A stretch of 36,431 bases of DNA from IMG/VR virus record IMGVR_UViG_3300036466_000081, positions 1 to 36,431 of that record; one strand, written 5' to 3'. Positions 2,076 to 27,821 of this stretch are shown here, in pieces. Numbering within the stretch: the stretch's first letter is position 1; each line of letters opens with the position of its first letter. The position numbers were made by a program, and so were the translations under genes. This stretch comes from a virus. The notes under the pieces were generated by a model. It ran no database searches, was not told where the DNA came from, and saw nothing but the letters and a program-made list of their open reading frames with translations.

Positions 2076-3644
2076 CTATCTCCCATAAAACGAAACATTG
2101 ATGTTACCAATCGGCTGATTCTTTGTTACTGCCATCGCTAAATATCTGAACGCATCAGCACAGTGAGAAGTCCAGTCATGCAGCGGCTTATCTCGCCAGC
2201 ACCCAAGTTTGTCGTTCCACTCCTTGCGGTACTGTTCTAGCCTTGTGATGCCTTCCTCGCATTTTGATTCATCAAAGCAGCAGCGCGGTAATAACTCGCG
2301 AACCAGTTCAATCCCTTCGTCAATGCCCATTAGCTTAAGCACTTTGAAGTTAATAGAATAAGTCGTGCCATCAATGATAAACCCTTCTGCTGCGATTTGT
2401 CGCCTGCTTTTCGCATCACTGCCAAATTCAGCGTGATTCATGTCGTGCGGGGCGAAGTGATCGCCGTACTTCCACCCATTGGCGCTAGCCTTATCCTTTA
2501 GCACTTTGAAGTAATGGCGCATACCCTCGCCGCTATTTTCGTAAAAATCAATTAAGTGGATCTTATTGCCAATCAGTTGATAAAACCATATCGCTGTCGA
2601 GTCGCCCACACCCAAGTCCCATGCGGTATGAACTGGAGCGTCATTCTTTGGCATTGCGCCTATGCGCTTATCAGCGTAAATCTGCGCGAACTGCTTAGCG
2701 TAATAAGCGCCTTCAACAGATTGAGCAAATGCCTCGTCAGGTGTCGATGGATATTCCCGCTTCATATCGTCGCCAAGTGTACGCCACTTTGCCGAGTACC
2801 AAGCCTTTTGATTGTCAGTAAGCGTTATTCCATGCTTTTTCTCTAGCTCTATAAAGTATTCAAGCAGTCCGTTAGCAATGCGCCCAGATATTGAGTATTC
2901 GCCGCGAGTCCACCATGGGTAAAAATGAAACGCAAACTCAAGCACGGATGGCTTGCGTCCTGAGTCTAGTATCTTCTTGGCTTCATTGCAGTAATTAAAG
3001 AAATAACCTTCCTTGCCTTCTGCTGTCGACTCTATTGTGATCTCGTTTCCAACCGCCACAGCCTCGAATGCGCCAGTAACGATTTCCTTTGCTTTCTCAG
3101 GATACTTTTTACATATTTTCCCGAACTCTGATACGTGCAGGCTTTGCAGTGTTCCACCACGGTAAGACACGCTCACCTTGATGCTTGATCCGTTATCGAA
3201 CACGTAGCTGTTATCTTTGTCGTTCAATGGCACTGGCAACTGGTAGCCAATCTCAGCTAATAGCTCGCGCTGGTCATCGGTGATATTTTGGTAAGCATAC
3301 TTGATCTTGTTTCTAAAAATATCTTTGGCATCTTCCAAGTTGTGACAGATACACCCAGCTGAAAAGTTTTCAGTGAAAAGGCAATTGTCCAAGTCTGAGA
3401 TCATCTTGAATGTGGTAAACCCAAGCTGCCGAGCCTTAAGGATAATGTCTAGGCCGTGCTGAGTTAGGTAGAAGTCCTCTTGCTCTGCATTTGGCGTAAA
3501 AAGCACCTTCTTCCCTGACTTGTCTTTGATGTGATAAAGCGTGTTTAGCCGAAACCATTTGTAAGTCATGGCATCGGCTAATTCGTTGTATGTGAGGGAG
3601 TCTATCCGGCTGAGATAGTCTTTTGCTATCTCGTGGTTTGTCAT
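2076..3644 (-). CDS. terL: Terminase large subunit
   Basis: The 522-aa protein is the ATPase-nuclease that cuts concatemeric DNA and pumps it into the prohead through the portal. A Walker-A-like KARQLGFTT is at residues 70-78, an adenine-binding FTPNAEQEDF block lies before it, a Walker-B-like LHVSEFG ends near 175, and TIESTAEG (203-210) is coupling motif C. The C-terminal nuclease begins with VHTAWDLGVGDSTA (Asp343, Asp348) and ends with SHCADAFRYLA, which holds the last acidic residue. The Walker A lacks the classical GKS/T, as in other terminases with a degenerate loop. The start overlaps the terS stop by 4 nt (ATGA). Confidence 0.93.
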   Translation of the reverse strand: MTNHEIAKDYLSRIDSLTYNELADAMTYKWFRLNTLYHIKDKSGKKVLFTPNAEQEDFYLTQHGLDIILKARQLGFTTFKMISDLDNCLFTENFSAGCICHNLEDAKDIFRNKIKYAYQNITDDQRELLAEIGYQLPVPLNDKDNSYVFDNGSSIKVSVSYRGGTLQSLHVSEFGKICKKYPEKAKEIVTGAFEAVAVGNEITIESTAEGKEGYFFNYCNEAKKILDSGRKPSVLEFAFHFYPWWTRGEYSISGRIANGLLEYFIELEKKHGITLTDNQKAWYSAKWRTLGDDMKREYPSTPDEAFAQSVEGAYYAKQFAQIYADKRIGAMPKNDAPVHTAWDLGVGDSTAIWFYQLIGNKIHLIDFYENSGEGMRHYFKVLKDKASANGWKYGDHFAPHDMNHAEFGSDAKSRRQIAAEGFIIDGTTYSINFKVLKLMGIDEGIELVRELLPRCCFDESKCEEGITRLEQYRKEWNDKLGCWRDKPLHDWTSHCADAFRYLAMAVTKNQPIGNINVSFYGR

Positions 3645-8493: not shown

Positions 8494-8703
8494 TTATGCA
8501 ATGCGCTTGACGTACAGAATGCCAGTCGCTTTATCGGTCTTGGTTTTGAATTTCCATCTTGGGTTCTGAGCGCTTGCGTATGCGTGCGCAGTTCTTTGCG
8601 CCCTAAGCGCGTCTCTATCCTCAAGCTTGACTACTTGGCCAATAACCATGTGTTTAAATGGCCAAACAGAACTCTCAAAAAAATCATCTGGTAAATCTGT
8701 CAT
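8494..8703 (-). CDS. Hypothetical 69-aa protein, first gene of the recombination operon
   Basis: The ATG at 8703 has an excellent AAAGGAGGAAG ribosome site, and a promoter lies directly upstream at 8731-8758. The sequence MTDLPDDFFESSVWPFKHMV has an acidic aromatic start and a basic second half (RAQRTAHAYASAQNPRWKF) ending in a beta-like KATGILYVKRI. That pattern resembles small winged or DNA-binding phage proteins, but no family is recognised. It probably accompanies the downstream coiled-coil protein. Confidence 0.72.
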   Translation of the reverse strand: MTDLPDDFFESSVWPFKHMVIGQVVKLEDRDALRAQRTAHAYASAQNPRWKFKTKTDKATGILYVKRIA

Positions 8704-15772: not shown

Positions 15773-16191
15773 ACCTCACCAAACTAAACACCCACAACAT
15801 CACCGTGTTCGGTGACAATAGCTACCGCGGAGATTGCCCGTTTGAATCAGCAGAGCAAGTCAGCTTTCTGGCACAGCTTCGCAGGCTATATCCAGAGCTT
15901 GCAGAAATCGCGGTACACATTCGCAACGAAGGCAAGCGCACAAAGCGCCAAGGCCACCAGCAGAAGATTGAAGGGATGAACACAGGCGCCAGTGACATTG
16001 TTATTCCATGCTCACCGCCGATACTCATCGAGTTGAAGAGGCAAGACCACACGCTAAGCAGCATCAGCGACAAACAGATAAAGTACCTGGCACTCAGCCA
16101 GCGACAAGGCGCGTTTGCCTGCGTAGCGTTAGGAGCATCTGGAGCAATGGAGGCTGTGAGACAATGGCATACACAAAACCGCAAAAAATAA
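15769..16191 (+). CDS. VRR-NUC domain nuclease
   Basis: The 140-aa protein has the compact VRR-NUC pattern of PD-(D/E)XK nucleases: an early Glu (E29 in SAEQVSFLAQLRRLYP), HIRNEGKRT (50-58), TGASDIVIP (72-80) with Asp76, ILIELKRQD (85-93) with Glu88 and Lys90, then SDKQIKYLALSQRQG with Gln103. Stand-alone phage members are thought to resolve branched DNA or flaps. Its pairing with an SF2 helicase in one operon is common in phages. The start has AAGGAATT upstream and overlaps the preceding stop. Confidence 0.9.
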   Translation: MNLTKLNTHNITVFGDNSYRGDCPFESAEQVSFLAQLRRLYPELAEIAVHIRNEGKRTKRQGHQQKIEGMNTGASDIVIPCSPPILIELKRQDHTLSSISDKQIKYLALSQRQGAFACVALGASGAMEAVRQWHTQNRKK

Positions 16192-16427
16192 CAGGACAGA
16201 TGCCGCTAAATTACTTCTCGCACGATGAACAGTGGATTAATTCACAGTTGGCATACTGCGTTGATGTTGTTGAGCGCACCAAGGTTTGCCAAGCGTACAG
16301 CAAAGTTTATCTGCAAGCGCATGATGCAGAGCCACACGAAGTGCGCAAAGATGGCAAAGCCAGGTACGCTGCTAACAGCCGATTGCGCGAGTATGTGGCG
16401 AAGAAATTTAGGGTGTTTAATAAATAA
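16164..16427 (+). CDS. Hypothetical 87-aa basic protein, end of the plus-strand operon
   Basis: I start it at ATG 16164 (MAYTKPQKITGQMPLNYFSH); the frame is open upstream to 16008, but that part is a shadow of the nuclease gene. It overlaps the nuclease by 28 nt. The sequence has VVERTKVCQAYSKVYLQAHD and a basic end (KARYAANSRLREYVAKKFR), typical of a small helical nucleic-acid-binding phage protein. A last-gene position could suit a late regulator, but I see no antiterminator signature. Confidence 0.68.
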   Translation: MAYTKPQKITGQMPLNYFSHDEQWINSQLAYCVDVVERTKVCQAYSKVYLQAHDAEPHEVRKDGKARYAANSRLREYVAKKFRVFNK

Positions 16428-16429
16428 TG

Positions 16430-16457
16430 TTGACACATAAATAAATGTTGATATACT
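16430..16457 (+). promoter_or_regulatory. Promoter of the accessory cassette
   Basis: TTGACA (16430-16435), a 16-nt spacer and TATACT (16452-16457) make a strong sigma70 promoter. The spacer itself contains ATAAATAAATGTTGA, a near copy of the block upstream of other -35 boxes in this phage. Confidence 0.85.
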
Positions 16458-16466
16458 TGTTATCAA
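16448..16466. promoter_or_regulatory. Operator-like inverted repeat over the -10 box
   Basis: TTGATA (16448-16453) and TATCAA (16461-16466) are inverted copies with a 7-nt gap and cover the -10 box at 16452-16457. The arms match the TTGATAA arms at 12580, 27394 and near 510, so the same repressor may act at all of them. Confidence 0.55.
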
Positions 16467-16484
16467 GAGCTGAGGAATAGACCG

Positions 16485-16508
16485 ATGCGATATGAGATAA
16501 GAAGATGA
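16485..16508 (+). CDS. 7-codon leader peptide MRYEIRR
   Basis: ATG CGA TAT GAG ATA AGA AGA TGA begins 8 nt after a strong TGAGGA ribosome site (16471-16476). Its stop overlaps the next ATG (16505) as ATGA, and that ATG has no good ribosome site of its own. Three of its seven codons are rare in many enterobacteria (ATA, AGA, AGA). Translation of the downstream gene therefore looks dependent on reading this leader. Confidence 0.5.
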   Translation: MRYEIRR

Positions 16509-16831
16509 AAACAGTTACACTTTACCACGGCACAACTCTTGAGAACGGCAAAAGCATTCTTAATGATGGCGTTATCAATGGTCCCGTGTATATGTCTCCA
16601 TCATTCAAAACCGCTGAGGATTACGCGGCCAATAATTCTTCTGATTACATGATATTTGAGCTGGAAATTGCATTTGATGAGCTCGAATATGATGCAGAAT
16701 TTATCAATGGTGACACTGATGACTTGGTTCAAGAGTCGCTTGATGCTGGTTCGGTGTTTGTGGATGGTGACGTATCAATATCAAATGCAAAAGTTAAAAC
16801 ATTCATCGATTACGAAGAAGTTGATGCGTAA
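16505..16831 (+). CDS. Small protein resembling the ADP-ribosyltransferase fold
   Basis: The 108-aa acidic protein starts MKTVTLYHGTTLENGKSILN. The order YHGT (7-10), a helix with ENGKSILNDGVI (13-24), a strand VYMSPSFKTAEDYA (28-41), and IFELEIAF (50-57) follows the small ART/KptA-like layout, in which His, a Ser/Tyr pair and later Glu line the NAD pocket. The closing VSISNAKVKTFIDYEE is also typical of such folds. The second half is very acidic (ELEYDAEFINGDTDDL). It is alone with one 58-aa gene behind its own promoter, as accessory anti-defence or host-modifying genes often are. The call rests on motif pattern only. Confidence 0.45.
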   Translation: MKTVTLYHGTTLENGKSILNDGVINGPVYMSPSFKTAEDYAANNSSDYMIFELEIAFDELEYDAEFINGDTDDLVQESLDAGSVFVDGDVSISNAKVKTFIDYEEVDA

Positions 16832-16834
16832 TCG

Positions 16835-17011
16835 ATGAAAACCATAACAGTAACACTAACCAACCAGACAGAAACAATCGAGCGAACCATCAAGACAAGA
16901 GGAAGCGCAAAGAAGGCTGCCAACGCTTTGGCGTATACGATGGAAGGATTTACAGCTGTTTGTTACAAAGTTGAAAATAATACTTGCAAAAATGAGGCCA
17001 ATAGCAAATAA
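16835..17011 (+). CDS. Hypothetical 58-aa basic protein of the accessory cassette
   Basis: The ATG at 16835 starts 3 nt after the stop of the ART-like gene and has no clear ribosome site, so it is probably translated by re-initiation. The product begins MKTITVTLTNQTETIERTIK, an alternating beta pattern, followed by a helix (GSAKKAANALAYTMEG) and a tail with two Cys (VCYKVENNTCKNEA). The charge is opposite to that of its acidic partner, so the two could bind each other as a pair. No family recognised. Confidence 0.65.
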   Translation: MKTITVTLTNQTETIERTIKTRGSAKKAANALAYTMEGFTAVCYKVENNTCKNEANSK

Positions 17012-17060
17012 TTACGTTGTTCATTTCGTGTATTTCCTTTTGTATTGCTCTACCTTGAAC

Positions 17061-17090
17061 AACCCGCTCTCTCCGGCGGGTTCTTTTTTT
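17061..17090 (+). terminator. Rho-independent terminator closing the plus-strand cassette
   Basis: AACCCGC (17061-17067) pairs with GCGGGTT (17076-17082), followed by CTTTTTTT. It sits between the convergent accessory cassette and the last gene of the minus-strand late operon. Confidence 0.9.
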
Positions 17091-17472
17091 ATGTGGATGG
17101 GTAATTTAGCGCCCACCTTATCACCGCGGCAATAGCCCCACCAATAGCACCCCACTTAACAAGCCAGAGCAGCACATTTTGCACCGACTTCCCTATCCTT
17201 GCCGTTCCCTGTATATCCCTGTGAAGCTCGACAATAGACCTAGTTTCTTCTGTGAGCTTGTCTATAGACTGAGTATTCTGGTTAACTGCATTTATCATCG
17301 AATCAAATTTGGCTGCCTCGTCAGTAACATGCTTTTCAAAACGACTTGTTAGCGAGATTATGGATTTATCAACTGACAATTTATGTGAATCGAACCTGTC
17401 TGATAGATCTTTCAATTCGCCATGCATTGCCGACAATTCCTCGTCACTGAATCTTCGCGCCATTGGTTCCAT
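17089..17472 (-). CDS. Coiled-coil protein with a C-terminal membrane segment, lysis module
   Basis: The 127-aa protein has a soluble helical region with heptads (about 8-85: ELSAMHGELKDLSDRF, DEAAKFDSMINAVNQN) and one membrane segment near 100-123 (VLLWLVKWGAIGGAIAAVIRW). This resembles small lysis-associated proteins of the XhlA type, although the sequence match is loose. It is the last gene of the late operon, after the holin-like gene and endolysin. ATG at 17472 or 17463 both fit; a GGCAAGAG site favours the first. Confidence 0.65.
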   Translation of the reverse strand: MEPMARRFSDEELSAMHGELKDLSDRFDSHKLSVDKSIISLTSRFEKHVTDEAAKFDSMINAVNQNTQSIDKLTEETRSIVELHRDIQGTARIGKSVQNVLLWLVKWGAIGGAIAAVIRWALNYPST

Positions 17473-17554
17473 AACTCTTGCCTTTTAACTTTCGGCTATG
17501 ATAACAACCATTTGACCGCATGTCATTGATGTCAGTAATTTGTTTATGCAAATT

Positions 17555-27349: not shown

Positions 27350-27389
27350 TTTAAATAAATGTTGACAGCAGCAAATGATGAGCTAGAAT
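27350..27389 (+). promoter_or_regulatory. Promoter of the plus-strand cassette in the tail operon
   Basis: TTTAAATAAATGTTGACA (27350-27367) provides an AT-rich upstream element and the -35 box; TAGAAT (27384-27389) follows after 16 nt. The 18-bp block is identical to the one at 548-565 on the other strand. Confidence 0.85.
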
Positions 27390-27393
27390 GATG

Positions 27394-27407
27394 TCAATTA
27401 ATGTTGA
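27394..27407. promoter_or_regulatory. Operator-like TCAA-N6-TTGA repeat
   Basis: TCAATTAATGTTGA begins 5 nt after the -10 box and runs into TAA, giving TTGATAA. It has the same spacing as the element at 12580-12593 and covers the expected start of transcription, so a repressor here would silence the cassette. Confidence 0.55.
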
Positions 27408-27428
27408 TAACCAAAAAGGAACCACAAA

Positions 27429-27821
27429 ATGAACGCAGCACAAAAACACGCCCAAGAAATCCTGCCGCTAGTCACGGCGCAGGCCAATGGTGAAGTTATT
27501 CAGCAGTACGTTGATTCTAATGGCTGGATTGATTGCACAGACCCAGTCGCATTTGTTCATGGCTGCAAGTACCGCATCAAGCCGCGCACGATTATTGTTA
27601 ACGGGTTTGAAGTGCCGGAGCCGATGCGTGAACGACCTAGAGATGGTGATACCTACTTCTGCCCTCATGCATCATCAATTGACATGTACGGATTTGCAGA
27701 CTGGGAAGAGTGCGCTGTGGATTTGGTGCGCCTAAAAAGAGGCCTCTGCCACTCAACCAAAGAAGCAGCCATTGCACACGCTAAGGCGATGTTGGGGATT
27801 TGTCCTAAGGATGGTGAGTGA
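27429..27821 (+). CDS. Accessory (moron) protein, 130 aa
   Basis: The gene runs against the surrounding tail operon and has its own promoter, the definition of a moron. RBS AAAGGAACC precedes ATG 27429. The N-terminal half (AQEILPLVTAQANGEVIQQY, DPVAFVHGCKYRIKPRT) and the C-terminal half (VNGFEVPEPMRERPRDGDTY to RGLCHSTKEAAIAHAKAML) look like two modules; the latter (NGFEVPEP...GLCH.T.EAAIAHAKA) recurs in many enteric phage proteins of unknown role. It may alter the host or block other phages, but no mechanism is visible. Confidence 0.75.
   Translation: MNAAQKHAQEILPLVTAQANGEVIQQYVDSNGWIDCTDPVAFVHGCKYRIKPRTIIVNGFEVPEPMRERPRDGDTYFCPHASSIDMYGFADWEECAVDLVRLKRGLCHSTKEAAIAHAKAMLGICPKDGE

Follow-up and report, generated by a model that had tools for sequence, protein, structure and literature searches.

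Is a protein of 108 amino acids that has the look of a bare ADP-ribosyltransferase (ART) a working enzyme, and what would a phage do with it? The question is raised by a gene on the plus strand at 16505..16831 of the window, by which is meant the whole stretch of viral DNA analysed here (36,431 nucleotides, IMG/VR record IMGVR_UViG_3300036466_000081). ARTs are already known from phages; sections of PMC9503650 report that only about 3% of siphoviruses and podoviruses have them, and link many phage ARTs to virion packaging. What sets the present protein apart is that it stands alone, is minimal in size, is acidic (pI 4.05), and is unusual at the third position of its active site, a position that would tell whether such minimal ARTs are enzymes.

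An earlier note on this DNA had proposed an ART from the motifs YHGT, VYMSPSF, and FELEI, all of which are indeed found in the translation, at residues 7-10, 28-34, and 51-55. The ORF begins with ATG, its single start, which closely follows an in-frame stop (TGA, 16493). A 7-codon frame, MRYEIRR (16485..16508, plus strand), has a GAGG ahead of it that looks by eye like a better ribosome-binding site than that of the ART gene itself and, because its stop and the start codon of the ART gene overlap, translational coupling of the two is possible, as a single example. The only near-identical copy of the region is on IMG/VR contig 3300043122_000036, which matches the window exactly over contig positions 1-12,862 (loci L001 and L002). 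Because the compared stretches are identical, and because the 26,465 nt of this contig equal the extent of window positions 9967-36431, it is taken to be the same virus and to provide no independent evidence.

Searches with the single protein returned little: phmmer against the PDB found nothing, tblastn gave only spurious minor-tail matches in phages (E 0.6-0.8), and the plasmid matches were weak, from Enterococcus (E 0.5) and from Fusobacterium (E 0.02), the latter to a KptA-like ORF. The related-locus search recovered the same virus only, whether the query was the single protein or alignment A2, while query P0001, and the single protein in genome contigs, found nothing. Relatives were instead gathered by scanning viral contigs with the pattern YHGT.......I...G, which adds the downstream Gly/Ile spacing to YHGT and which yielded 46 and at least 119 stretches; in genome contigs it matched six stretches, none of whose listed candidate ORFs looked like an ART, and none of which was used. 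Pooling all stretches, those six included, gave at least 127 distinct candidate ORFs, and at least 42 candidates, counting the window copy, cleared HMMER's threshold for inclusion when compared with the ART protein. Alignment A5 (20 rows, one of them the window) was picked by eye from these and from further candidates; four KptA-type rows (L171, L091, L083, and L097) were deliberately kept out of it and used in alignment A7 only.

Because the relatives were selected by this pattern, conservation of the residues in it is circular, as is part of the profile scores. Outside the seed motif, Asp63, Gly82, Ser83, and Val84 are invariant in a five-row alignment (A3), and a C-terminal SV..(G)D(V/L).I, also outside the selection motif, is common to the window protein, L172, and L080, with partial versions in L117 and L114. 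These observations bear on the possibility that the ORF is a chance reading frame with a chance YHGT, a view to which the absence of close relatives from 50,697 phage records, 72,556 plasmid records, and a close-relative scan of genome contigs lends something. Such a view is hardly credible, given a confident structural model, a strong promoter, snug packing in the operon, and relatives that align over most of the ART's length (the closest among the matches listed, L117, has 38% identity over 105 alignment columns); since the relatives have common residues beyond the seed motif, the ORF is taken as a real gene. One locus outside the viral contigs, L014, encodes at 2501-3064 a 187-aa Enterococcus faecalis plasmid protein with YHGT and alignable ART-like sequence, adjoining a tyrosine recombinase.

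Family models gave weak matches to the single sequence. The Pfam matches are ART-PolyVal (PF18760, E 0.075), at 14.2 bits short of the curated cut-off of 31.2, and PARP (E 0.16), and the second Pfam match, at 11.9 bits, is far below its cut-off of 26.7. The NCBIfam KptA model matches with an E of 0.0012, as does phrog_13493, followed by phrog_38345 (E 0.009); phrog_13493 also matches 12 of 16 aligned relatives (E<=0.1). At E<=1, the Pfam matches of those 16 relatives are to ART-PolyVal (5), PARP (4), PTS_2-RNA (3), DRAT (1), and DarT (1). Searched against PDB sequences, profile A5 gave 32 matches at E<=10, of which 30 are to named ARTs or ART toxins, with a best E of 2.8e-4. When A3 and A5 were compared by hhalign to A7, the KptA set, the E values (3e-9 and 1e-9) were not counted, because both sets, except L013, had been chosen by YHGT. 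A PADLOC match to MTase_II (E 8e-4) was set aside as chance, with 97 residues matched to a methyltransferase model of 399 positions.

The earlier note had called the fold from motif pattern and named AlphaFold as a check. An AlphaFold2 model, built from the 20 rows of A5 with no templates, reached a pLDDT of 88.4 and a pTM of 0.77, block averages falling below 70 in residues 61-80 only, and it contains the split beta-sheet of the ART core. In VIA-align, Tpt1/KptA is the best match of known structure (Z 10.4, 86 residues, 2.4 A), in agreement with the compact KptA-like core that had been suggested; the best 14 rows are all Tpt1/KptA (Z 8.7-10.4), and named ARTs make up 48 of the 50 matches listed, the other two being the uncharacterised CC0527. 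The top Foldseek rows against the PDB are mostly ARTs as well, at probabilities of 0.85-1.0, with a best E of only 0.018 and no match reaching 0.001. Against viral models, Foldseek found gp336 of Bacillus phage G (E 2e-5) and a phage protein named DarT (E 2e-4). Taken together, the model, the structure matches, and the profile search indicate that the 108-aa protein almost certainly has the ART fold. AcrIF11, DarT, and phage T4 Alt and Mod do not appear among the PDB fold matches listed, nor AcrIF11 among the sequence and profile matches listed against the PDB, absences that exclude nothing.

The nearest solved fold raises the question of whether the protein is an RNA 2'-phosphotransferase (KptA/Tpt1, PF01885) for RNA repair, a function to which the NCBIfam KptA match would also point. 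The resemblance covers the C-terminal half of KptA only: the window protein begins six residues before YHGT and therefore has no N-terminal lobe, the second His of KptA/Tpt1 is replaced by Tyr29, and the positions of the conserved Arg residues (invariant in A7) are not Arg. With all three features absent, KptA identity was rejected, and a role in RNA repair is very unlikely. The ART domains of phage polyvalent proteins (PF18760; the Tox-ART-HYD2 clade in parts of PMC5512222) provide a second comparison, as they have in common with the window protein YHGT on strand 1, an aromatic position on strand 2, and a compact core. Of the nearest relatives found, most are domains of larger phage ORFs (188-2171 codons), in the manner of ART-PolyVal domains. 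Several (L114/L185, L188, L189, and L192-L195) lie within ORFs of 1,000-2,171 codons, a size typical of polyvalent proteins, and two others (L117 and L172) within ORFs of 188-191 codons; a few (L080, L157, L109, and L159) are seemingly solo. Unlike the polyvalent domains, the window protein is a solo 108 aa encoded in the early region, scores below the Pfam cut-off, and lacks an Asp where the strand-5 residue aligns. Three proteins of Bacillus phage G (gp336, gp532, and gp568) are among the best viral model matches, but these belong to a jumbo phage and are 143-157 aa in length.

Whether an ART fold of this size is also an enzyme depends on its active site; the earlier note had named His8 and Tyr29 for mutation. 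Both residues are present: His8 and Gly9 lie on strand 1 of the model (residues 3-11) and are kept in all 20 rows of A5, rows that were selected on the motif, and Tyr29 lies on strand 2 (residues 28-31). Close relatives do not all have Tyr29, however, and it is Ser or Ala in two of the four closest, L172 and L080; over the 20 rows its column is Y in 12, F in 6, S in 1, and A in 1. Eleven residues further on, the Tyr40 column reads Y in 10, F in 5, M in 3, and G in 2. In PARP1, the pair of tyrosines that stack on nicotinamide are spaced likewise. In the alignment, the place of the usual acidic third residue is taken by Ser83, a column that is S in 11 of the 20 rows and acidic in none, and because of this the sequence does not conform to the H-Y-E/D triad. 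Asp87 and Asp89 come directly after strand 5 in the model, so that the acidic residue may be either missing or supplied from the following loop. By the clade definitions in sections 3.3.1 and 3.7.1 of PMC9503650 and in parts of PMC5512222, the protein looks like an ART of the H-Y type.

The lack of an acidic residue at the aligned third position is also what the main rival to an NAD-dependent modifier builds on, namely a dead or non-transferase ART fold that would act by binding, either holding NAD+ or an ADP-ribose-derived signal or, alternatively, occupying the nucleic-acid-binding site of a defence protein with its strongly negative surface. The charge of the protein speaks for such a role, at a calculated value of about -18 in 108 aa; per residue (-0.170) it is the most acidic of 45 window ORFs examined, the next being -0.102, and also the most acidic of the 20 aligned ARTs. 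A protein so acidic leaves room for binding or mimicry. Set against this are the retention of His8 and of the aromatics at 29 and 40, and the nearness of Asp87/Asp89, which could supply the acid in the way of Asp115 of AcrIF11, located in a loop according to parts of PMC12421852. On balance, the modelled protein is probably an active transferase, and a binding role, though a serious contender, is considerably less likely.

The setting of the gene offers some guidance as to what a transferase would be for. The earlier note had given the ART a promoter and terminator of its own at the end of an early operon. A sigma-70-type promoter, TTGACA-16-TATACT, is found on the plus strand at 16430..16457 with 11 of 12 matches and with a TG before its second hexamer, internal to the upstream run of replication genes. 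At 11 or more matches the window has only two such sites, at 16430 and 27362, each of them AATGTTGACA with a spacer of 16 bases; 20 first-order Markov sequences as long as the window had 0-3 apiece. An intrinsic terminator, a hairpin with a T-run at 17061..17082 on the plus strand (fold z -3.6), closes the cassette; because the upstream replication-gene run also ends there, the claim of a private terminator is borne out as to its existence but not clearly as to its being private. Rfam gave no match over 16000-17500. Upstream on the same strand lie an SSB-like gene, a RadD-like helicase, a 93-aa gene, a VRR-nuclease-like gene, and an 87-aa gene, and downstream, in convergent orientation, the endolysin and tail genes. 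With replication-type genes on one side and convergent endolysin and tail genes on the other, the end of an early run is a fair description of the position, and from this gene order we infer early expression. The promoter overlaps two AATGTTGA direct repeats (16426-16433 and 16444-16451), and pairs of these repeats, 18-19 bases apart, overlap a promoter both here (16426-16451) and in a kin phage contig, L004 (about 8605-8632); as read from the sequence, they could be an operator for some regulator.

Comparison with L004, which has a helicase 92% identical to that of the window, shows that the ART occupies an exchangeable accessory slot and is not part of a dedicated pair. The upstream border of the slot is the conserved 87-aa gene (phrog_852, 16164..16427, plus strand), which is also present in L004 and is followed there by a promoter-like TTGACG-18-TATTAT (spacing by eye) with the same two AATGTTGA repeats. 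Three genes that differ from those of the window come next (69, 50, and 100 aa). They are followed by a 70-aa gene, the C-terminal part of which shares 48% identity over 46 columns with the 58-aa protein encoded after the ART, and by a terminator-like hairpin. The 100-aa protein of this equivalent slot (L004 9031-9333) has a CxxC pair and a second cluster, HHCVAC. Ten annotated relatives (one phage each of Aeromonas, Shewanella, Serratia, and Erwinia, and six of Vibrio) have other genes in the slot, whose annotations include Kil-like, methyltransferase, restriction endonuclease, and dUTPase. The ART profile matched one of 16 kin records, several of which are viral contigs in fragments, and that one is the copy of the same virus. 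Because other kin carry different slot genes and the ART is in 1/16 records, the ART is regarded as an exchangeable accessory gene.

The 58-aa basic protein (16835..17011, plus strand, calculated pI 9.3) exists as the earlier note described it, but its standing as a partner of the ART did not survive: L004 keeps the promoter and the 58-aa homologue with other genes between them, leaving a dedicated pair unsupported, and because that homologue occurs without an ART the gene is assigned to the slot and not to the ART. By tblastn the protein had no match in phages and plasmids, and its L004 version had only Lactococcus matches (E 1-6). The model, built from two sequences only, is beta-beta-alpha-beta with a single helix (E-E-H-E, pLDDT 83.3); it is weakly similar, to much the same degree, to T7 Gp2 (Z 6.0) and T4 Dmd (Z 5.8, 52 aligned, 2.4 A), though by the tool's own note a Z below 8 is not discriminating for so small a fold. 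An ART plus Dmd-like pair has been proposed for some enterophages in parts of PMC9503650, and two adjoining genes, acidic then basic, would suit an ART toxin with a 58-aa antitoxin; as such a partner would always accompany its ART, and a homologue stands without one in L004, this arrangement is improbable. An acr-aca operon, of which a helix-turn-helix partner is the mark, is disfavoured by the same model, in which the 58-aa protein is not helix-turn-helix.

The reading we prefer is of a minimal stand-alone ART-fold enzyme that a strong promoter of host type would express early in infection. NAD+ would be bound in a cleft formed by His8-Gly9 of strand 1, Tyr29 of strand 2, and Tyr40, and one ADP-ribose would be transferred, most likely, to a host or host-defence macromolecule; NAD binding and catalysis are what we infer from the model and the retained residues. 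The gene sits in an accessory slot between replication and lysis/tail genes, and this slot is filled differently in different phages, as one would expect of genes for host takeover or counter-defence. As a whole, an early NAD-dependent ADP-ribosyltransferase acting on a host or defence target is somewhat favoured, and the candidate probably helps the virus to take over or disarm its host, while an anti-defence role specifically is a tentative suggestion. The anti-CRISPR AcrIF11 is likewise a small mobile-element ART with an H-Y pair, but, as described in parts of PMC12421852, it has a helical region at about residues 51-107 that is without a counterpart of the same size here; the window protein, moreover, has no type I-F link and no sequence or fold match to AcrIF11 among the matches listed. 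A solo ART of near-minimal size, in an exchangeable early slot with promoter and terminator, would be a clean candidate for a modifier that is newly made and serves host takeover or counter-defence.

A more speculative and rather unlikely version would see a minimal, extremely acidic ART in which the usual acidic catalytic position has been lost and which serves early counter-defence by capture of NAD or ADP-ribose ligands in the ART cleft together with a negative surface that mimics nucleic acid, as one of the exchangeable slot proteins under a common AATGTTGACA promoter module, by which a second accessory gene at 27429-27821 would be driven as well. The gene at those positions (phrog_18768, 130 aa, plus strand) stands alone among minus-strand late genes with the second AATGTTGACA promoter ahead of it, and promoter and gene together (27358-27821) appear moron-like. 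The two AATGTTGACA promoters would fit accessory genes that carry host-type promoters of their own.
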